Below, piece after piece: positions 1,144 through 24,029 of a stretch of DNA of 55,721 nt. The DNA is from Prevotella sp. (lineage in GTDB: Bacteria > Bacteroidota > Bacteroidia > Bacteroidales > Bacteroidaceae). Below the pieces are notes generated by a model. The model made no database searches. It worked only from the letters and a program-made list of their open reading frames with translations, and had not been told where the DNA came from. The translations under genes and the position numbers were made by a program. The stretch spans positions 1-55,721 of the forward strand of contig JAFVHN010000043.1 in NCBI GenBank assembly GCA_017474515.1, written 5' to 3'. Positions within the stretch are counted from its first letter, which is position 1, and every line of letters begins with the position of its first letter.

Positions 1144-2136
1144 ATGATGCGGAAATTATTACTTCTATTGCTCATGCCGCTGGCGGTGCTGACGGCACAG
1201 GCACAAAGCAATGATTACAACATGGTCATTGAGCTGAACAACGGCACGACAATCACCCTGGGTGCCAACGATGTGAGAAACCTCACCTTCAACGGCGATG
1301 CGCTCTCCATCAGCGGCAACACCATCGAGGACATTATCGCTGCCCTTGCCACCAAGGCCGACAAGTCCGAAATTGAAGAGCTGAGAGCCTTGATAAACCA
1401 GTTTAAGGATGTTGTGTCCAAAAAGACTATTACCGTCAACGGCGTCAGTTTTAAAATGGTGAAGGTTTTCGGTGGAACGTTCCAGATGGGTGCGACGTCA
1501 GAGCAGGTGAGCGATTCTGACTCGGATGAACGCCCTGTCCACTACGTGTCGCTTTCCGACTACTGGATTGGTGAGACGGAGGTGACGCAGGCCCTGTGGC
1601 AGGCCGTCATGGGCAGCAATCCTTCCGAGTTCACGGGTGACAGCCAACGTCCGGTGGAGAATGTCAGTTGGAATGACTGCCAGACGTTCATCCAGACATT
1701 GAACGAGCTGACGGGCATGTCGTTCCGCCTGCCCACGGAGGCCGAATGGGAATTTGCGGCCCGCGGCGGCAATTCCTCCCAGGGCTACAAGTATGCCGGC
1801 AGCAACACAGTTGACAACGTGGCCTGGTATTATTTCAACAGTTATGCCTTGGGCAGCAGCAGTCCGGATTATGGCACCCATCCTGTTGCCACCAAATCCC
1901 CGAATGAGCTTGGCCTTTACGACATGAGCGGCAACGTGTGGGAGTGGTGTCAGGACTGGTATGGCAGTTACAGTTCTTCAGCCCAGACAGACCCTGTCGG
2001 TCCTTCGTCGGGCTCCAACCGGCTGAGGCGCGGGGGCAGCTGGAACAGCAACGCCAGGAACTGCCGTGTGGCGTATCGCAACTACGGCACGCCCTCTAGC
2101 CGCGACAACAGCCGTGGGCTACGCCTTGCTTTTTAG
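1144..2136 (+). CDS. Secreted FGE/C-type-lectin-fold protein with DGR-like variable C terminus (1 of 3)
   Basis: A secreted protein of 330 residues. A signal peptide (1-20, ending AQA) is followed by a small beta-rich domain (about 22-60, NNGTTITLG and LTFNGDALSISG), a heptad-like stalk (about 60-95) and a formylglycine-generating-enzyme-like domain (about 100-330). Domain motifs are FQMGATSEQ, ETEVTQALW, RLPTEAEWEFAARGG, MSGNVWEWCQDW and the terminal GLRLAF. The FGE family adopts a C-type-lectin superfold, used both by enzymes and by DGR variable proteins. No sulfatase substrate is encoded nearby, so I favour a ligand-binding role. Residues 292-324 are hypervariable relative to the two paralogues downstream, while the sequence on both sides is nearly identical. 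The start is ATGATG at 1144 or 1147, just after a good promoter. It probably acts at the cell surface or outside the cell, but no T9SS sorting domain is visible. Confidence 0.9.
   Translation: MMRKLLLLLLMPLAVLTAQAQSNDYNMVIELNNGTTITLGANDVRNLTFNGDALSISGNTIEDIIAALATKADKSEIEELRALINQFKDVVSKKTITVNGVSFKMVKVFGGTFQMGATSEQVSDSDSDERPVHYVSLSDYWIGETEVTQALWQAVMGSNPSEFTGDSQRPVENVSWNDCQTFIQTLNELTGMSFRLPTEAEWEFAARGGNSSQGYKYAGSNTVDNVAWYYFNSYALGSSSPDYGTHPVATKSPNELGLYDMSGNVWEWCQDWYGSYSSSAQTDPVGPSSGSNRLRRGGSWNSNARNCRVAYRNYGTPSSRDNSRGLRLAF
2017..2118 (+). other. DGR-like variable region 1
   Basis: The 102 nt before the conserved end encode a segment ending at GLRLAF. Aligned without gaps to 3470-3571 and 5036-5137, 22 of the first 33 codons differ among the three copies. 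By my count 20 first positions, 15 second positions and 8 third positions differ. The 11 codons identical in all copies (CGG, CGC, GGG, GGC, TGG, GCC, TGC, CGT, GTG, CGC, CCC) contain no adenine. This is the signature of adenine-directed mutagenesis from a template repeat. The DGR assignment is inference. Confidence 0.75.
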
Positions 2137-2237
2137 TTCTTCCAAAAAAATGGAAATTTCGCGCATGCCTTGTTCAGGTGAATTTGCTTTTTTTTTTCGT
2201 AAACTCGGCTGAAATGGATAGTTAGTCCGACATTCTT

Positions 2238-2339
2238 AGGAGCCGACGCTTCCAAGCGTCGGACTAACTTTTTTATTTACTCTGACGCTTTCAGGAGTAT
2301 TTTTTTTAGTTACTCCGACGCTCGGAGGCGTCGGCTCCT
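2238..2339. repeat. GGAGCCGACGC palindrome, copy 3
   Basis: It lies about 100 bp downstream of the first lectin-fold gene. The whole stretch from the stop codon to the following palindrome (2134-2483) is nearly identical to 5153-5496 after the third gene, so gene end and palindromes were duplicated as a block. The gap 2137-2564 holds only this element and the GGACATAC palindrome. Confidence 0.85.
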
Positions 2340-2395
2340 AATGGCGTCGGCTCCTACTGGTATCTGCTCCTATTTTGTCGGCCCTTATTCAACTT

Positions 2396-2483
2396 GTAGG
2401 GACATACTTCATGTATGTCCGAAATCACCCGAGAAATCAGGATGCTCCGAGGCGAGGCGGACATACATGAAGTATGTCCCTAC
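2396..2483. repeat. GGACATAC nested palindrome, copy 3
   Basis: Perfect outer inverted repeats GTAGGGACATACTTCATG and CATGAAGTATGTCCCTAC around a centre nearly identical to that at 5410-5496. It sits between the first lectin-fold gene and the promoter of the second. Confidence 0.85.
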
Positions 2484-2564
2484 TCTAAATATCCTGTTTA
2501 TATATTTCAATGCTATCCTTGAAACATTTTTCTAAATATTTATGAAAACTTTTCTGCCAAAGAG

Positions 2565-2595
2565 TTGCTCTTTCTCCATTTTCTTTGTATATTTG
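2565..2595 (+). promoter_or_regulatory. Promoter of the second lectin-fold gene; decides the start codon
   Basis: TTG at 2565-2567, 20 bp, then TATATTTG at 2588-2595. An in-frame ATG at 2585 overlaps this box, so it cannot be the start of an mRNA made from this promoter; the ATG at 2621, which begins a good signal peptide, is the likely start. The block is copied from the promoter at 1089-1118. Confidence 0.75.
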
Positions 2596-2620
2596 CACAC
2601 ATAAACCAAATTACTATAAT

Positions 2621-3589
2621 ATGAAGAAATTATTGTTAATGTTGCTCATGCCGCTGACCATGGTGTCGGCACAGGCGCAAAGCAATGACTACAACATGGT
2701 CATTAGGTTAAACAACGGCACGAAGATAACGTTGGGCGCCAACGACGTGAAAGACCTTACCTTCAACGGCAATGAGCTGTCCATCAGCGGCAACACGATA
2801 GCAGACCTTTACTCACGAATCGCGAGGCTGGAAGGTCTGGCCAGCCGGGTGCAGGATAAAGCGTCCCCAGAATGGACGTTCACCGTCAATGGTGTGAGTT
2901 TCAAGATGGTGAAGGTAGTTGGCGGCGCGTTCCAGATGGGTGCGACGTCAGAGCAGGGGAGCGATGCGCGCGATGATGAGAAACCAGTCCACAGAGTGAC
3001 ATTGTCTAACTATTACATCGGCGAGACGGAAGTGACTCAGGCGTTGTGGTATGCCGTGATGGGGCAGAGGCCCATACCCCAATCTTCTCACCAGTGGGAA
3101 AACGCTTACGGCCTTGGCGACAACTATCCTGCTTATTATGTCAACTGGAATAACTGCCAGGAGTTCATTACCAGGTTAAACCAGCTGACGGGCCTGACTT
3201 TCCGCCTTCCCACGGAGGCCGAGTGGGAGTTTGCTGCCCGTGGCGGCAACAGTTCCCAAGGTTACAAATATGCCGGCAGCAACACGATTGACGACGTGGC
3301 TTGGTACAAATCCAATTCCGACGGCACGACTCACCCTGTTGCCACCAAAGCTCCGAATGAGCTTGGCCTTTACGACATGAGCGGCAATGTGTGGGAGTGG
3401 TGTCAGGACTGGTATGGCAGTTACAGCTCTTCAGACCAGGCAGACCCTGTCGGTCCTTCGTCGGGCTCGGGCCGGGTGGAACGCGGGGGCGGCTGGGACA
3501 GCCTTGCCAAGTTCTGCCGTGTGGCGGGTCGCGTCTACAGCAACCCCTCTGGCCGCATCTACTTCCTCGGGCTGCGCCTTGCTTTATAG
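2621..3589 (+). CDS. Secreted FGE/C-type-lectin-fold protein with DGR-like variable C terminus (2 of 3)
   Basis: A 322-residue paralogue of the protein at 1144. It has a signal peptide (MKKLLLMLLMPLTMVSAQA), a beta domain (NNGTKITLGANDVKDLTF), a short coiled-coil stalk (about 60-85, IADLYSRIARLEGLASRV) and an FGE-like domain (about 90-322). The core motifs are the same (IGETEVTQALW, RLPTEAEWEFAARGG, YDMSGNVWEWCQDWYG). Residues 284-316 form the variable segment; the last residue is Leu where the others have Phe. The gene is probably co-transcribed with 3680-4129 and 4166-5155, since the gaps are 90 and 36 bp and I see no strong terminator. The start is set by the promoter box at 2588-2595. Confidence 0.9.
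   Translation: MKKLLLMLLMPLTMVSAQAQSNDYNMVIRLNNGTKITLGANDVKDLTFNGNELSISGNTIADLYSRIARLEGLASRVQDKASPEWTFTVNGVSFKMVKVVGGAFQMGATSEQGSDARDDEKPVHRVTLSNYYIGETEVTQALWYAVMGQRPIPQSSHQWENAYGLGDNYPAYYVNWNNCQEFITRLNQLTGLTFRLPTEAEWEFAARGGNSSQGYKYAGSNTIDDVAWYKSNSDGTTHPVATKAPNELGLYDMSGNVWEWCQDWYGSYSSSDQADPVGPSSGSGRVERGGGWDSLAKFCRVAGRVYSNPSGRIYFLGLRLAL
3470..3571 (+). other. DGR-like variable region 2
   Basis: Aligned without gaps to 2017-2118 and 5036-5137. Examples of codon triplets (copy 1/2/3) are AAC/GGC/TAC, AAC/GAC/GGC, AAC/GTC/GCC and AGC/GGC/GCC: the third base is constant while the first two vary, as expected if the template codon is AAC. Immediately upstream, TCCTTCGTCGGGCTC is identical in all three genes. 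Confidence 0.75.
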
Positions 3590-3679
3590 TTCTTCCAAGA
3601 AAAAAGAAAGAAAAAAACTAACAAACCTTATTGACCATTAACCGTCTGACGGGAGCCATCGGACATAAATAGAAAGTAA

Positions 3680-4129
3680 ATGAAAAAGAAAATCTTTATT
3701 TTATTCCTGTGGCTATTGCTGCCACAGGTGCTGTTGGCAAAGGTGAATGCCGTGGTGGTGCATCAGACCAACGGCACAAAGACCGTGTTTTTGCTTGCTG
3801 ATGCCCCCGTCGTCACTTATTCGGGGAATACGCTCGTCTTGAGAACAGCCACAAAGGAGGCATCGATGCCTGTGGAGGGCATAGAGAATGTGACGTTTGA
3901 AGACTATTCCGTTCCCACGCTGATTGACGAGGCGACCATTACCTCCGACGGCATCTTGTTCCGACAGCTGGCTGCCGGTAGTGAAGTGCGAATCTACACC
4001 GTTGACGGCAAGACGGTCAGCACACTGAAGGCTGACAGCAGCGGCGTCGTAGCCCTCGACCTGTCTGCGTTGCCCAAGGGCGTGCTGATTATCAGAACTC
4101 CCGATACCACTATCAAAGTGAATAACTAA
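3680..4129 (+). CDS. Small secreted protein: NGT-type beta domain plus T9SS type A-like C-terminal sorting domain
   Basis: 149 residues. A signal peptide (about 1-20) is followed by a short domain whose motif (TNGTKTVFLLADAPVVTYSG) resembles the N-terminal domain of the flanking lectin-fold proteins. The C-terminal ~60 residues (EVRIYTVDGKTVSTL, LDLSALPKGVLIIR, TIKVNN) match the pattern of type IX secretion C-terminal sorting domains. There is no other effector domain, so this is close to a bare sorting module. It lies 90 bp after the second lectin-fold gene and 36 bp before the third, which suggests co-expression. A role as anchor or partner of its neighbours is inference; export by the T9SS encoded at 21556-27767 is the family expectation. 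Confidence 0.75.
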   Translation: MKKKIFILFLWLLLPQVLLAKVNAVVVHQTNGTKTVFLLADAPVVTYSGNTLVLRTATKEASMPVEGIENVTFEDYSVPTLIDEATITSDGILFRQLAAGSEVRIYTVDGKTVSTLKADSSGVVALDLSALPKGVLIIRTPDTTIKVNN

Positions 4130-4165
4130 TCCAAACGTCATTAATAACTAAAAACCAAAAAGAAT

Positions 4166-5155
4166 ATGAAGAAACTATTGTTAATGTTGCTCATGCCGCT
4201 GGCCATGATGACGGCACAGGCACAAAGCAATGACTACAACATGGTCATTGAATTGAACAACGGCACGAAGATAACGTTGGGTGACAACGACGTGGAAAAC
4301 CTCACCTTCAACGGTGATGCGCTGTCCATCAGCGGCAGCACGATAGCAGACCTTTACTCACAAATCGCGAGGCTGGAAGTTCTGTTCAGTCAGTTGCGGG
4401 ATAAAGTGTCCCCAGGAAAGACGTTCACCGTCAATGGTGTGAGTTTCAGAATGGTGAAGGTAGCTGGCGGCACGTTCCAGATGGGTGCGACGTCAGAGCA
4501 GGGAGACGACGCATCCGACTCGGAGAAGCCTGTCCACAATGTGACGTTGTATGACTATTACATCGGCGAGACGGAAGTGACTCAGGAGTTGTGGTATGCC
4601 GTGATGGGTAAGAGGCCCACGTCGGACGGCGACCAGTGGAGCAGTTCTTGGGGCCTTGGCGACAACTATCCTGCTTATAATGTCAGCTGGAATGACTGTC
4701 AGACGTTCATCACCAGGTTAAACCAGCTGACGGGTCAGCAGTTCCGCCTTCCCACGGAGGCGGAGTGGGAATTTGCTGCCCGCGGCGGAAAAAATTCTCT
4801 GGGCTACAAGTATGCCGGCAGCAATACGATTGGCGACGTGGCATGGTATTTGGACAACATCCCTTCGCATTCATACGGCACGGCGGGCTATGGCACCCAG
4901 CCTGTTGCCAACAAATCCCCGAATGAGCTTGGCCTTTACGACATGAGCGGCAACGTGCGGGAGTGGTGTCAGGACTGGTATGGCAGTTACAGCTATCCAG
5001 ACCAGACGAACCCTATCGGTCCTTCGTCGGGCTCCTACCGGGTGACGCGCGGGGGCGCCTGGGGCGGCTACGCCAGGGATTGCCGTGTGTCGCAACGCGC
5101 CAACAGCCACCCCAATGGCTACAGCGAAAGACTCGGGCTGCGCCTCGCTTTTTAG
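4166..5155 (+). CDS. Secreted FGE/C-type-lectin-fold protein with DGR-like variable C terminus (3 of 3)
   Basis: 329 residues with the same architecture as its two paralogues. The signal peptide is MKKLLLMLLMPLAMMTAQA, followed by the beta domain (NNGTKITLGDNDVENLTF), the stalk (IADLYSQIARLEVLFSQL) and the FGE-like domain (about 95-329). The conserved MSGNVWEW reads MSGNVREW here. It differs from the second gene around residues 150-165 (KRPTSDGDQWSSSWG), outside the variable region, as ordinary paralogue divergence. Residues 291-323 are the DGR-like variable segment. It is the last gene of a likely three-gene unit starting at 2621, and is followed by a copied block carrying both palindrome families. 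Confidence 0.9.
   Translation: MKKLLLMLLMPLAMMTAQAQSNDYNMVIELNNGTKITLGDNDVENLTFNGDALSISGSTIADLYSQIARLEVLFSQLRDKVSPGKTFTVNGVSFRMVKVAGGTFQMGATSEQGDDASDSEKPVHNVTLYDYYIGETEVTQELWYAVMGKRPTSDGDQWSSSWGLGDNYPAYNVSWNDCQTFITRLNQLTGQQFRLPTEAEWEFAARGGKNSLGYKYAGSNTIGDVAWYLDNIPSHSYGTAGYGTQPVANKSPNELGLYDMSGNVREWCQDWYGSYSYPDQTNPIGPSSGSYRVTRGGAWGGYARDCRVSQRANSHPNGYSERLGLRLAF
5036..5137 (+). other. DGR-like variable region 3
   Basis: Third member of the aligned set. It retains AAT at codon 27, where the other two have TCT; both changed bases would be adenine in a template. It also has GAA and AGA at codons 31-32, with adenines at third positions. Of 43 variable nucleotide columns in the three-way alignment, I count 32 in which at least one copy still has A. 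Confidence 0.75.
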
Positions 5156-5253: not shown

Positions 5254-5354
5254 AGGAGCCGACGCTTCCAAGCGTCGGACTAACTTTTTTATTTACTCTG
5301 ACGCTTTCAGGAGTATTTTTTTAGTTACTCCGACGCTCGGAGGCGTCGGCTCCT
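5254..5354. repeat. GGAGCCGACGC palindrome, copy 4
   Basis: Near-identical to 2238-2339, with an almost identical ~100-bp lead-in from the lectin-fold stop codon. Confidence 0.85.
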
Positions 5355-5409: not shown

Positions 5410-5496
5410 GTAGGGACATACTTCATGTATGTCCGAAATCACCCGAGAAATCAGGATGCTCCGAGGCGGGCGGACATACATGAAGTATGTCCCTAC
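5410..5496. repeat. GGACATAC nested palindrome, copy 4
   Basis: Near-identical to 2396-2483 and the right-hand boundary of the lectin-fold array. Beyond it, at 5497-5582, I see only unremarkable spacer before the GH3 terminator. Confidence 0.85.
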
Positions 5497-5651: not shown

Positions 5652-7907
5652 TTATTGTATGTATGTGAACTTGCAGGTGGAGTGGAGCAGGGTGGCGGAG
5701 GTACCGGCAATGGCTTCAAACTCACCGGGTTCGGCCGTCCACGCGCCCGTCTGCTCGTCGTAGAAGCTGAGGGCTGAGCGGTCGATGGTGAAGGTGGCCT
5801 GTCGGGTTTCGCCCGGCTGAAGGAAAAGCTTTTGGAACGCTTTCAGTTCCTTCACGGGCCGCACCACCGACGATTTCTTGTCGCGGATGTACAGCTGTAC
5901 GGTCTCGGCGCCCGCCCTGTTCCCGGTGTTGGTGACGTCCACGGTGAAGGTGATGTTCCCGTTGCTGTCCATCTGTTGCCGGTTGCTGCCAAGCTTACCT
6001 ATTTTAAAAGTCGTGTAGCTCAGGCCGTGGCCGAAGGGGAAGAGGGGCTTCAGCTTCTTCTGGTCGGTCCAGCGGTAGCCCACGAAAATGTCTTCCTTGT
6101 ATTCTTCGTCGATGATTTGATGGCCGTCGCGCCAGGTGCCGGGGTATGAGCCGGTGGCATGGGCACCGCACTGCTCAAGGCTGGCATACCATGTGAAGGG
6201 CAGCTTTCCCGAGGGGTTGACGTCGCCGAAGAGCACCGATGTCAGTGCGTTTCCGGCCTCAGAGCCAATGAACCATGCCTGCACCACGGCAGGCACCTTG
6301 CCGAGCCACGGCATGGCCACGCCGTTTCCCGAGATGTTGACAAAGACCAGTCGCGGGTTGACGGCGGCGATGGCCTCCACGACCTCGTCTTGGGCGTAGG
6401 GCAGGCCATATTGCTTGCGGTCGTGACCCTCGCAATCCTGGAAGTCGCTCTTGTTGAGCCCGCCTATGAAGATGACGAGGTCGGCCTGGCGCGCCTTTTC
6501 CACGGCCTCGGCGGTGAGCTCCGGCTGGGTGCGGGTGTCGTAGAGGCTCCGTCCCACTTTCACGCCGTTGTAGCTTTGCACGGTGTCGCCCACATAGCCC
6601 CTGGCGAAGTCGCAACTGATGCCTTCCTTGGCGCACCGCTGGCTGATGGCGTCGAGCGGAAGGATTTCGTGTTGGGCCTTCAACGACGAGGAGCCTCCGC
6701 CCACGGTCATCATCTTGATGGCGTTCTCGCCGACGACGAGGATGCGGCGGGTGGTCTGCCGGTCAACGGGCAGCAGTGGCTCTGCTTTCTTTGCCGGACG
6801 GTCGTTCTTGAGGAGCACGATGCCCTCCTGCGCTATCTTCAACGCGGCGGCATAGTGTTCGTCGGAACAGAGGAAACCATAGGGCTTTTGGCGGTTCATG
6901 GTGGTGCGGAAGAAGAGCCTGAGCACGCGGCGCACCTTTTCGTCGAGCTCGCGGGTGGAGAGCTTCCCTTCCTTGATGAGCCGCTTGTAAGGTGCGGCCA
7001 GGTGGTAGTTGTCGTAGGCGTTGGAAGTGCCCCAGGCGAGGCCGTCGGTCCATGTGCCGAACTCCATGTCGAGGCCGTTCCTGACGGCTTCCTCGGTGCT
7101 ATGGCACCCTCCCCAGTCGCTGATAACCACGCCGTCGAATCCCCATTGCTGCTTCAGGATGTTGTTGAGCAGCACCTGGTTATGGCAGTTGTGCTGGTTC
7201 TGGTAGAGGTTGTAGGCGCCCATGATGGCCCATGCTCCGCCCTGCTGGACGGCGGCCTTGAAGGCTGGCAGGTAGATTTCGTGGAGGGCGCGGTCTGACA
7301 CGATGACGTTGACCTGGTGGCGGTACTCCTCATCGTTGTTGAGCGCATAGTGCTTCACGCAGGCCGCCACCCCCTTCGATTGGAGTCCCTGAACGTAGGG
7401 CACCACCATTTGCGCGGCCAGGAACGGGTCTTCGCCCATATACTCGAAGTTGCGCCCTGCCAGCGGTGTGCGGTAGATGTTCACGCCGGGGCCGAGCATG
7501 ACGTTCTTGTTGCGGTAGAGGGCTTCCTCGCCCAGGCTTTCGCCGTAGAGGCGCGCCAGGGCGGGGTTCCAAGTGGCTGCCAGACAGGTCAGTGCGGGGA
7601 AGGCCACGCACGAGTCGTTGGTCTGCCCGGCCTGTTCCCATTCGTCCCAAAGCACGTCGGGGCGCACGCCGTGAGGGCCGTCGTCGGTCCACAGGTCGGG
7701 GAATCCGAGCCGCTTCACGCCGGGCGACGAGAACTTCGATTGCGCGTGAATGACGGCAATTTTCTCGTCGAGCGTCATGCGTCCCAGGGCATCGTCGATG
7801 CGCTGCTCCACGGGCTTTGAATCATCGAGCCATAAGGGCAAAGTCTGGGCTTGTAGCGGGCTCAGGCTGGCCAAGCCCGCTACAGTTGCAAGGATAAAAA
7901 GTTTCAT
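5652..7907 (-). CDS. GH3 beta-glucosidase-type exo-glycosidase
   Basis: 751 residues, full length for a GH3 of the BglX type. A signal peptide (1-20, LQAQ) without lipobox cysteine suggests a periplasmic enzyme. The TIM-barrel domain carries KHYALN (185-190) and the nucleophile Asp264 in VISDWGG. The second domain carries the likely acid/base Glu493 in DCEGHDRKQYGLP. A C-terminal fibronectin-III-like domain spans about 640-740. It would release glucose from oligosaccharides imported by the SusC/D pair. It is the last gene of the PUL, 3 bp after GH16, so the two are translated from one message. The substrate could also be a xyloside; the GH16 neighbour favours beta-glucan. Confidence 0.9.
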   Translation of the reverse strand: MKLFILATVAGLASLSPLQAQTLPLWLDDSKPVEQRIDDALGRMTLDEKIAVIHAQSKFSSPGVKRLGFPDLWTDDGPHGVRPDVLWDEWEQAGQTNDSCVAFPALTCLAATWNPALARLYGESLGEEALYRNKNVMLGPGVNIYRTPLAGRNFEYMGEDPFLAAQMVVPYVQGLQSKGVAACVKHYALNNDEEYRHQVNVIVSDRALHEIYLPAFKAAVQQGGAWAIMGAYNLYQNQHNCHNQVLLNNILKQQWGFDGVVISDWGGCHSTEEAVRNGLDMEFGTWTDGLAWGTSNAYDNYHLAAPYKRLIKEGKLSTRELDEKVRRVLRLFFRTTMNRQKPYGFLCSDEHYAAALKIAQEGIVLLKNDRPAKKAEPLLPVDRQTTRRILVVGENAIKMMTVGGGSSSLKAQHEILPLDAISQRCAKEGISCDFARGYVGDTVQSYNGVKVGRSLYDTRTQPELTAEAVEKARQADLVIFIGGLNKSDFQDCEGHDRKQYGLPYAQDEVVEAIAAVNPRLVFVNISGNGVAMPWLGKVPAVVQAWFIGSEAGNALTSVLFGDVNPSGKLPFTWYASLEQCGAHATGSYPGTWRDGHQIIDEEYKEDIFVGYRWTDQKKLKPLFPFGHGLSYTTFKIGKLGSNRQQMDSNGNITFTVDVTNTGNRAGAETVQLYIRDKKSSVVRPVKELKAFQKLFLQPGETRQATFTIDRSALSFYDEQTGAWTAEPGEFEAIAGTSATLLHSTCKFTYIQ

Positions 7908-7910
7908 GGT

Positions 7911-9014
7911 TTACTTCTTTTGGAATACTCTGACGTAATCGACCTCCATGGTTGCGGGGAGTGCGTTTTCGTCAACCCCCTGCGCTCCGCCCCAGTCGCC
8001 GCCCCAAGCGAGGTTGAAGATGATGTAGAACGGGTCGTCGTAGGGCCAGTCGTCGCGCCCTTTGCCCTTGTTGTCGTAGGAGAGCTGCACCTTTCCGTCA
8101 ACGTAGGTGGTGATGTTCTTGGCCGTCCAGAGCATGGCGTAGGTGTGGAACTCGCCCTCGGCGCCCTCGCACTTCATTTCGTGCGTCACCTGTGTGTTGT
8201 TGGTGTGGACGTGGGCGTTGGCGTGAAGGCTCGACGAAACATAATCGGGGTGGTAGCCCACTTCTTCCATGATGTCAATTTCGCCGTCGGCGGGCCATGA
8301 GCGGAAGTTGACGGGCATCATCCAGAAGGCGGGCCAGGTGCCCTTTCCCTTCGGCAGTTTGATGCTGGCCTCGATGTATCCGTAGGTCCATCCGCTCTTC
8401 ACCTTGGCATAGACGCGGCCGGAGTAAATCTTGCCGTTCTCCTTCAGGCAGTTGATGCGCAGTTTTCCGTTTCGCACCTCGGTGACGAACGAGCCCTCGG
8501 GCGTTTTGTGGTTGACGTAGTTCTGAAGCTCGTGGTTCACCCATCCGGCGTTTTTCACCTCGTGCGTCCAGTCGTCGGCATTCAGTTCCGAGCCTTTGTC
8601 GAACTCGTCGTGCCAGACGAGGGTGTAGCCTTCGGGCGCATAGTAGGCCTGCTTCTCGGAGGGTGCCTGCACAACGTTGATGGTCTGGCGTGCCGCTCCC
8701 GACATGAGCACGATGGTTCCCGTGCGCTGAGTGGTGTTGGGGTTTCCGGCGACGGTGGCCGTCAGCGTGCCCTGCTGCGACGTGGCGTTGCGGGTTTCAA
8801 CGGTTATGAAATCCGCTTCGGAGTAGGCCCCCCATTCTTTTCCCGTGGTGGTCACGCTGACGGTGTAAGTGCCGCCGTCGGCCGGGGCATTGATTTCCTG
8901 AGGCGAGGCGGTGATGGTCACGGCCGCGGGCTGTGGGTCGTCCTCGCTCCCGCCGCACCCGCTGAGGGTGACGGCGAGAGAGAACATTAAAACGTTAAGC
9001 ATGAGCTGTTTCAT
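7911..9014 (-). CDS. GH16 endo-beta-1,3(4)-glucanase lipoprotein with BACON-like domain
   Basis: 367 residues. The lipoprotein signal ends LSGC (Cys20) and is followed by acidic GGSEDD, compatible with surface export. A BACON-like Ig domain occupies about 30-118 (SPQEINAPADGGTYTVSV), a module common in Bacteroidetes surface glycosidases. The GH16 domain (about 125-367) has the catalytic EIDIMEE signature: Glu245, Asp247, Glu250. The reaction is endo-hydrolysis of laminarin or mixed-linkage glucan at the cell surface. Its ATG overlaps the TGA of the upstream glycan-binding protein (ATGA), implying translational coupling. Confidence 0.92.
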   Translation of the reverse strand: MKQLMLNVLMFSLAVTLSGCGGSEDDPQPAAVTITASPQEINAPADGGTYTVSVTTTGKEWGAYSEADFITVETRNATSQQGTLTATVAGNPNTTQRTGTIVLMSGAARQTINVVQAPSEKQAYYAPEGYTLVWHDEFDKGSELNADDWTHEVKNAGWVNHELQNYVNHKTPEGSFVTEVRNGKLRINCLKENGKIYSGRVYAKVKSGWTYGYIEASIKLPKGKGTWPAFWMMPVNFRSWPADGEIDIMEEVGYHPDYVSSSLHANAHVHTNNTQVTHEMKCEGAEGEFHTYAMLWTAKNITTYVDGKVQLSYDNKGKGRDDWPYDDPFYIIFNLAWGGDWGGAQGVDENALPATMEVDYVRVFQKK

Positions 9015-22544: not shown

Positions 22545-24029
22545 ATGGAAAAGAACACAAATAGAGCAATGACGAGGGCAAGAAGGCTGGCTCCTTTCTG
22601 CCTTTTCGCGCTGTTGATGCTCATTACGGCATGCGCAGGAAGCAAACTCTCGCAAGGCGGAGGGCGCGGAGGCGAAGTGACCGGAGTGAGCGCAGGAAGG
22701 GGGTTCTCGGAGCCTACGCCCTTCGGAATGGTGCAGGTGAAAAGGGGATTCCTGAAAATGGGCATCGAGCAGGACGACAGCCTCTGGGGAAAACAGACGC
22801 CCACGCGCGAAATCTCAGTGGACGGCTTCTGGATGGACGAGACGGAAGTGACCAACGCTGAGTACAAGCAATTCGTGTACTGGGTGCGCGACAGCATCCT
22901 GCGCACCAGGCTCGCCGACCCGGCCTACGGCGGCGATGAAAGCTACATGATTACCGAAGACAAGAACGGCGACCCCATTCCGCCGCAAATCAACTGGAAG
23001 AAAAGCATTCCGCGAAAACCCAACGAGGATGAGCAGAGGGCCATCGAGAGCCTTTATGTCACCAATCCCGTGACGGGCGAAAAGCTCCTCGACTACAGCC
23101 AGATGAACTACCGCTATGAGTTCTACGACTACACCACGGCTGCCTTGCGTCGCAACCGCATGAACCCCGAGGAACGAAACCTCAATACCGACATCGTGCC
23201 CGACCCCAACGAGGTGGTCATGATTTCAAAAGACACGGCATACATCGACGATGAGGGCAGAATAGTGAGGGAAACCATTGACCGGCCGCTGAGCGGGCCG
23301 TGGGATTTCCTCAACACCTATATCGTCAACATCTATCCCGACACCACCTGTTGGGTGAACGATTTCCAGAATGCCGATAACGAAACCTATCTGCGCTATT
23401 ATTTCTCAAATCCTGCCTATAGCGAATATCCCGTGGTGGGCGTCACCTGGGAACAGGCCAACGCCTTCTGCGCCTGGCGCACCGACTACCTGCTAAAGGG
23501 GCTGGGCAACGAGGCACGCTTCGTGCAGCGGTACCGCCTGCCCACAGAGGCAGAGTGGGAATATGCTGCGCGCGGCAAGGATGGCAACGAGTTCCCCTGG
23601 GAGAACGAAGACATGGCGAGCGACCGCGGATGCTTCTATGCCAACTTCAAGCCCGACAAGGGTAATTACACCAAGGACGGCAACCTGATTACCAGCAAGG
23701 TGGGCATCTACGGAGCCAATACCAACGGGCTCTTCGACATGGCCGGCAACGTGGCCGAATGGACCAGCACCATCTACACCGAGGCGGGCGTGCAGGCCAT
23801 GAACGACCTGAACCCGCAGCTCGACTACAAAGCCGCCAAGGAAGACCCCTACCGGCTGAAGAAGAAGAGCGTGAGGGGCGGCTCGTGGAAAGACCCCGAA
23901 AGCTACATCCGCTCGGCGTGGAGGACATGGGAATACCAGAACCAGCCACGGTGCTACATCGGCTTCAGATGCGTGCGCTCCATGGCAAGCGTGCCCAGCT
24001 CCAAACAAAAGGGAAAGAAGAAAAAATAA
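22545..24029 (+). CDS. gldK: T9SS outer-membrane ring lipoprotein GldK/PorK
   Basis: 494 residues from the start at 22545 (MEKNTNRAMTRARR); 22569 is an alternative. The lipobox LITAC lies near residue 31. The FGE-like domain runs from VQVKRGFLKMG to the end, with ETEVTNAEYKQFVYW, RLPTEAEWEYAARG, GLFDMAGNVAEW and RGGSWKDPESYIRSAW. It assembles with GldN/PorN into the periplasmic ring under the outer membrane. A 30-nt longer frame begins inside an AATGACAAATGACAAAC repeat and is less likely. It shares its fold with the lectin-type proteins at 1144-5155 but lacks their hypervariable C terminus. Confidence 0.95.
   Translation: MEKNTNRAMTRARRLAPFCLFALLMLITACAGSKLSQGGGRGGEVTGVSAGRGFSEPTPFGMVQVKRGFLKMGIEQDDSLWGKQTPTREISVDGFWMDETEVTNAEYKQFVYWVRDSILRTRLADPAYGGDESYMITEDKNGDPIPPQINWKKSIPRKPNEDEQRAIESLYVTNPVTGEKLLDYSQMNYRYEFYDYTTAALRRNRMNPEERNLNTDIVPDPNEVVMISKDTAYIDDEGRIVRETIDRPLSGPWDFLNTYIVNIYPDTTCWVNDFQNADNETYLRYYFSNPAYSEYPVVGVTWEQANAFCAWRTDYLLKGLGNEARFVQRYRLPTEAEWEYAARGKDGNEFPWENEDMASDRGCFYANFKPDKGNYTKDGNLITSKVGIYGANTNGLFDMAGNVAEWTSTIYTEAGVQAMNDLNPQLDYKAAKEDPYRLKKKSVRGGSWKDPESYIRSAWRTWEYQNQPRCYIGFRCVRSMASVPSSKQKGKKKK

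Follow-up and report, generated by a model that had tools for sequence, protein, structure and literature searches.

Tandem lectin-fold genes of a Prevotella genome very likely carry variable repeats of a diversity-generating retroelement whose core was not found

The 55,721-nucleotide contig JAFVHN010000043.1 of Prevotella sp. (assembly GCA_017474515.1), hereafter called the window, carries three FGE-sulfatase-fold genes in tandem, the ends of which are very likely variable repeats (VRs) of a diversity-generating retroelement (DGR). In the 3.51-Mb draft assembly, which has 118 contigs and is 88.14% complete, the window is contig C74. Among solved structures, TvpA (2y3c) was closest to proteins 1 and 3, with E=4.1e-41 and E=4.3e-37, respectively. 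Judged from sequence comparison with PF03781 and TvpA, the proteins have a C-type-lectin-type fold with the VR at its end. The N-terminus of protein 1 looked signal-peptide-like by eye, and N-termini of this kind together with the kinship to TvpA make the window proteins putative secreted binders.

The first-pass annotation of the window had read the last 34 codons of the three genes as DGR targets. Our recount of this gapless alignment (2017-2118, 3470-3571 and 5036-5137) agreed with it in the 22 variable codons and in the 43 variable columns, which fell on 20 first, 15 second and 8 third codon positions and of which 32 had A in at least one copy. The statement that none of the invariant codons contains A also held, but their number is 12 of 34 codons and not 11 of 33. 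The 40 codons that immediately precede GPSSG in these genes had variable columns distributed 6/3/5 over the codon positions. There, 14 of 28 invariant codons contained A, compared to 0 of 12 in the variable block (Fisher P = 0.003).

The assembly contained 19 FGE-sulfatase domains, and the same 45-codon block, ungapped and stop-free, was present in 15 copies on ten contigs: three on C74, two on C13, three on C19 and one each on C7, C96, C14, C4, C99, C49 and C48. There are thus at least 15 VRs. The four domains not counted were those of C42 and C19 with aberrant C-termini, one on C26 and one in the window at 22725-23978. The latter lies within a 521-residue frame whose end is not VR-like and whose product, we assume, resembles GldK/PorK. 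With boundaries drawn by eye from the third bases, class A comprised seven VRs (C74 three times, C13 twice, C7 and C96) and class B five (C4, C99, C49, C48 and one C19 copy), and two template classes probably lie behind the VR set. A single open frame of 2238 residues on L044 has two FGE domains with a VR in each (6091-6225 and 7816-7950), the first VR being internal.

Whole cassettes consisting of an FGE target, an HRDC accessory gene, a reverse transcriptase (RT) gene and an AAC-rich template repeat (TR) were found in five genomes of the same genus (G009, G178, G326, G393 and G228), and their TRs share the codon register with the VRs of this genome. The template deduced from class A matched G009 at 86% identity, and the match adjoins the RT gene. 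At this locus, the FGE target and the gene for an HRDC-domain protein are accompanied by an RT with IGNLTSQ and YMDD motifs, which we take to be DGR-like, and the TR is located just past the RT stop codon. The other four genomes have FGE targets, HRDC accessory genes, RVT_1 proteins (IGNLTSQ or IGNLPSQ, and YMDD) and VR/TR pairs; in G178 the RT reading frame continues through the TR. In these relatives, 77-91% of the mismatches between VR and TR were at template A (read as T at one minus-strand locus).

Table 1. Target genes, VRs and VR 1 flank in the window
Feature	Coordinates	Strand	Remarks
Target gene 1	1144..2136	+	FGE-sulfatase fold, 330 aa; PF03781 E=1e-48
Target gene 2	2621..3589	+	FGE fold, 322 aa; PF03781 E=1.9e-46
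Target gene 3	4166..5155	+	FGE fold, 329 aa; PF03781 E=2.9e-49
VR 1, class A	2011..2133	+	Same codon register as TRs of five relatives
VR 2, class A	3464..3586	+	Register common to TRs of five relatives
VR 3, class A	5030..5152	+	Most non-A deviations among class-A copies
3' flank of VR 1	2134..2240	+	Near-identical to VR 3 flank starting at 5153; hairpin of the relatives' type not present

As template for the analysis of the variable columns we used the TRs of the five relatives. Columns with A in most TRs (31) were taken as A columns and those with A in none (76) as non-A columns; the other 13 of 120 template columns had A in a minority of the relatives and were excluded. In class A, 31 of 31 A columns were variable compared to 18 of 76 non-A columns, with mean pairwise differences of 0.667 and 0.091, respectively. 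The corresponding values were 25/31 and 15/76 for the three VRs of the window, 27/31 and 21/76 for class B, and 31/31 and 44/76 for all 15 VRs. A permutation restricted to codon positions 1 and 2 gave the floor value of P=1e-5 in all four sets. Measured against the TRs of the relatives and not against one of its own genome, the VRs therefore differ mainly at template adenines. In the A-column cells of the 15 VRs, A was retained in 42% at position 1 and in 53% at position 2, and all four bases were present. At template AAY codons the third base was C or T in 193 of 210 cells, compared to 1770 of 3000 upstream codons. Six other Bacteroidales templates fitted class B better (30/33 A versus 18/73 non-A), but this is partly circular because they were chosen after class B had been seen, for their fit at codons 9 and 38; the values given above for class B are the unpicked result. 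At codon 38 these six templates have AAC, the five class-B VRs have AAC, GAC or TAC, and six of the seven class-A VRs have CTC. At codon 9 every one of the five class-B VRs has CTT.

The bases following the VRs were compared over flanks of 110 bases starting at the last VR codon. In four pairs of copies these 3' flanks were 98-100% identical, and 17-22 of the 31 A sites differed. The pair C13b/C96 had 109 of 109 aligned flank bases identical and differed at 2 of 71 non-A and 17 of 31 A sites, the pair C7/C96 had 107 of 109 identical and differed at 3 of 71 and 22 of 31 sites, and window copies 1 and 3 had 106 of 107 identical, with six gap columns, and differed at 11 of 71 and 18 of 31 sites. 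Ordinary divergence does not fit these data, because one class of sites is saturated beside near-identical flanks. The same contrast separates mutagenesis from selection and bears on the alternative that the FGE family was duplicated and shaped by diversifying selection on the binding surface, with gene conversion elsewhere and no RT. FGE domains (PF03781) generally share framework residues, and in 20 of 21 class-A pairs the 150 bases directly preceding the VR showed a higher synonymous identity than a stretch of 420 bases, both of which such a history would accommodate. It does not explain why the variation sits on the A columns of templates that adjoin DGR RTs in relatives, nor the C or T bias at AAY codons, the saturated A sites or the remnant of a DGR accessory gene described below, and we consider it very improbable. 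The cassettes of the relatives, the variable A columns and the saturated A sites beside near-identical flanks strongly support a DGR origin of the variable regions.

No DGR RT was found among the 118 contigs, and the RT of G009 retrieved only the RTs of C72 and C5. The best model for the C72 protein was a group II maturase, matched in two pieces that were each below the whole-protein cut-off of the model, and the C5 protein was assigned to RT_UG26 with E=1.7e-160; both were rejected as DGR RTs. The group II intron maturase gene (L042, 4150-5130) is broken by a stop codon and sits close to a contig end, and about 1.4 kb from the UG26-type RT (L043, 3621-4916) lies a gene for a repeat protein of the pattern TSLQSIDIPDSVT. 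With VR 3 and two deduced templates as queries, only FGE genes scored above noise in this genome, so that no TR was found; in the first of these searches every candidate was scored. In the genus-wide template searches, no more than 5 and 2 of the 31 candidates of this genome were scored, and these searches were not used as evidence of absence. The first-pass annotation had counted the lack of both a template repeat and a DGR RT as one half of a case against DGR targets; neither was found, but the genome is incomplete.

A full HRDC accessory gene was likewise not convincingly detected in a protein search of the whole genome. A tblastn search of fetched stretches yielded a remnant of about 26 codons on C13 and no more. 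The sequence past the second C13 VR, MQVKFFFIPRLYPENAKRELNLLLPS, resembles the start of the accessory proteins of the relatives. Its 26 residues are 54% identical to the G009 accessory protein (tblastn E=0.027 among the fetched stretches), and its score against each of the five N-termini of the relatives was reached by 0 of 2000 shuffles. The ATG lies 125 nucleotides past the target stop codon, exactly as in G009, the distances in the other four relatives being 129, 135, 145 and 90. The frame then departs from the family and stops soon after. A clipped accessory gene that sits behind a VR, where it would be expected, points to the loss of a core.

Taken together, we consider it very likely that the C-termini in the window are DGR VRs within a dispersed set of at least 15, that the core, which was not found, was most likely deleted at C13, and that the set is a frozen library unless a core lies in the unassembled part. 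A DGR RT would have copied a TR of about 120 bases with AAC as diversified codons, misincorporating at template adenines during copying. The complementary DNA would then have taken the place of the corresponding end in each target gene, keeping non-A bases fixed while the A columns were randomised. Two template classes were probably used, one for class A including the three VRs of the window and one for class B. The core at C13, consisting of accessory gene, RT and TR, would most likely have been deleted, leaving the short accessory remnant. These writing steps are suggested by the pattern of variation and by the whole cassettes of the relatives.

Several observations weigh against this reading. 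Three of the 15 VRs (C14 and two on C19) belong to neither class, and the template of this genome is only deduced, because neither a TR nor an RT of its own is available. A columns also sit where the FGE fold tolerates change, and selection and mutagenesis are therefore partly confounded in the template analysis. VR 3 differs from each of the six other class-A VRs at 10-12 of 71 non-A sites, compared to 1-5 among those six; an A-only process does not give these changes, and the excess speaks for drift or another history. Over a 3' flank of about 380 nucleotides, identity between window copies 1 and 3 drops to 94.8%, with 20 gap columns, and this pair is therefore older than the first 110 bases suggest. 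The C13 remnant was chosen as the best tblastn match among the fetched stretches. Finally, the absent core is weak evidence of loss because the assembly is a draft of 118 contigs that is 88% complete.

The last point leads to the alternative that a working core resides in an unassembled or unbinned part of the genome and that the 15 VRs are live remote targets. The completeness of 88% leaves room for it, and the saturated A sites beside flanks of 98-100% identity in four pairs indicate writing that was recent relative to duplication. Moreover, all 15 VRs lack an internal stop codon. The hairpins that follow the VRs argue in both directions. In four of the five relatives (not in G228) long inverted repeats start 35-50 nucleotides after the VR, with arms of 17-22 and loops of 29-34 nucleotides, compared to stems of 7-10 bp and loops of 4 nucleotides described for phage DGRs (PMC3240598). 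None of the five TRs of the relatives has a hairpin of that size, and one has a 9-bp stem above its shuffles (40 simple shuffles served as control for each hairpin). In this genome, five of the 15 VRs (C13b, C7, C96, C14 and C48) have kept a long stem at +36 to +49. C49 has a 10-bp stem and C99 a 20-bp stem at +95, the stem of C19_7460 is no better than chance, and those after C4, one C19 copy and window copies 1 and 3 are parts of dispersed repeats. In the window, copies 1 and 3 have only the 12-bp stem of such a repeat at +83/+86, and copy 2 has nothing above chance. In phage BPP-1 the hairpin after the VR is needed for efficient homing (PMC3240598). If the same holds true here, the three VRs of the window may no longer be targets. 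A live core is also opposed by the lack of a DGR RT or TR among the contigs, the clipped accessory gene on C13 and the drift of VR 3 at non-A sites, and it appears somewhat unlikely to us.

The first-pass annotation was largely right in its diagnosis of DGR variable repeats, and its interpretation as a whole was partly supported. A working DGR in this cell did not find support, as the assembly, at 88% completeness, yielded neither a DGR RT nor a TR, the C13 accessory gene is clipped and the VRs of the window have no hairpin at the usual place.

A third possibility is that the core comes and goes on mobile DNA, the targets staying behind as landing sites that are rewritten at each arrival. In keeping with this, the distribution within the genus is patchy. 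The RT of G009 had matches at E<=1e-25 in 11 of 398 genomes, and VR/TR-like DNA was present in 17 of 398 including this one; five of the other 16 have a confirmed FGE-type cassette, and the remainder was looked at as motifs at most. Two apparent template classes in one genome would also fit repeated arrivals. On L098, a contig of an uncultured Prevotellaceae bacterium, accessory-like sequence runs directly into a TR (2527-5100), no RT was found on this stretch, and genes for an integrase and an IS91-type transposase are located no more than 2.5 kb from the TR. Judged from the same TR translation, L098 is very probably G385. Decay of the core is therefore not unique to the genome studied here. 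The integrase and transposase genes may, however, simply have broken that cassette, and vertical loss also fits the patchiness. In the genome collection, 99 stretches, from several phyla by title, matched a degenerate TR pattern, and 60 of the 80 stretches examined had a match to the G009 RT at E<=1e-8, but the pattern had 0 matches in viral contigs. We regard a mobile core as improbable.

In the window, targets 2 and 3 are separated by a gene for a 149-residue protein (3680-4129) without a Pfam match, the C-terminus of which we take to be like a secretion-sorting tail. A near-palindromic repeat, GGACATAC...GTATGTCC, occurs around the FGE genes at 229-249, 299-319, 997-1017, 2400-2420, 2459-2479, 5414-5434 and 5472-5492; it has 87 sites per strand in the genome, compared to 0 for the backwards control. 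A second palindromic repeat, CCGACGCTTCCAAGCGTCGG, is located within the same intergenic modules at 77-96, 386-405, 2243-2262 and 5259-5278.

The VR set belongs to a kind of system that has already been described, including a precedent for targets left by a lost core in Treponema denticola. In the published account (PMC4891356), the TvpA-type DGR of this species (structure 2y3c) likewise has targets of the FGE-sulfatase fold, several of which lie away from the core, an HRDC accessory protein and two TR types within the species. Where isolates had target genes but neither an RT nor a TR was found, these genes were read as likely leftovers of loss. The same account gives two to seven targets per isolate plus 'suspicious' ones, whereas the Prevotella assembly has at least 15 VRs, two apparent template classes within one genome and one VR that is internal to a long protein ending in a second VR. 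The FGE-type DGR of G009 (L062, a rumen Prevotellaceae bacterium) is alike in target fold, in the codon register of TR and VR and in the spacing of the accessory gene start from the target stop codon, but has a whole core, whereas here the accessory gene is clipped and RT and TR were not found. With Bordetella phage BPP-1 (PMC3240598), the system would share template-adenine-directed mutagenic retrohoming and, at five of its 15 VRs, a hairpin or cruciform after the VR, and it differs in being cellular and in its FGE fold. A literature search by listings returned no published account recognisable as the repertoire of this genome, which is no proof of absence in print.

In a large metagenome survey of DGRs, remote targets were, by its own account, not detectable by the approach used (PMC8144416). 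The present assembly, with 15 VRs on ten contigs and no DGR RT found, shows how much such a survey may miss. More generally, lineages of the genus might keep large dispersed sets of DGR-written lectin-fold genes after core loss, with the DGR acting as a temporary library generator, its products retained as a frozen repertoire, and successive visits by cores that differ in template class; we put this forward tentatively and think it rather unlikely. If the repertoire is indeed frozen or intermittently rewritten, it would raise the question whether some DGR products are preserved by selection once the machine that wrote them is lost.

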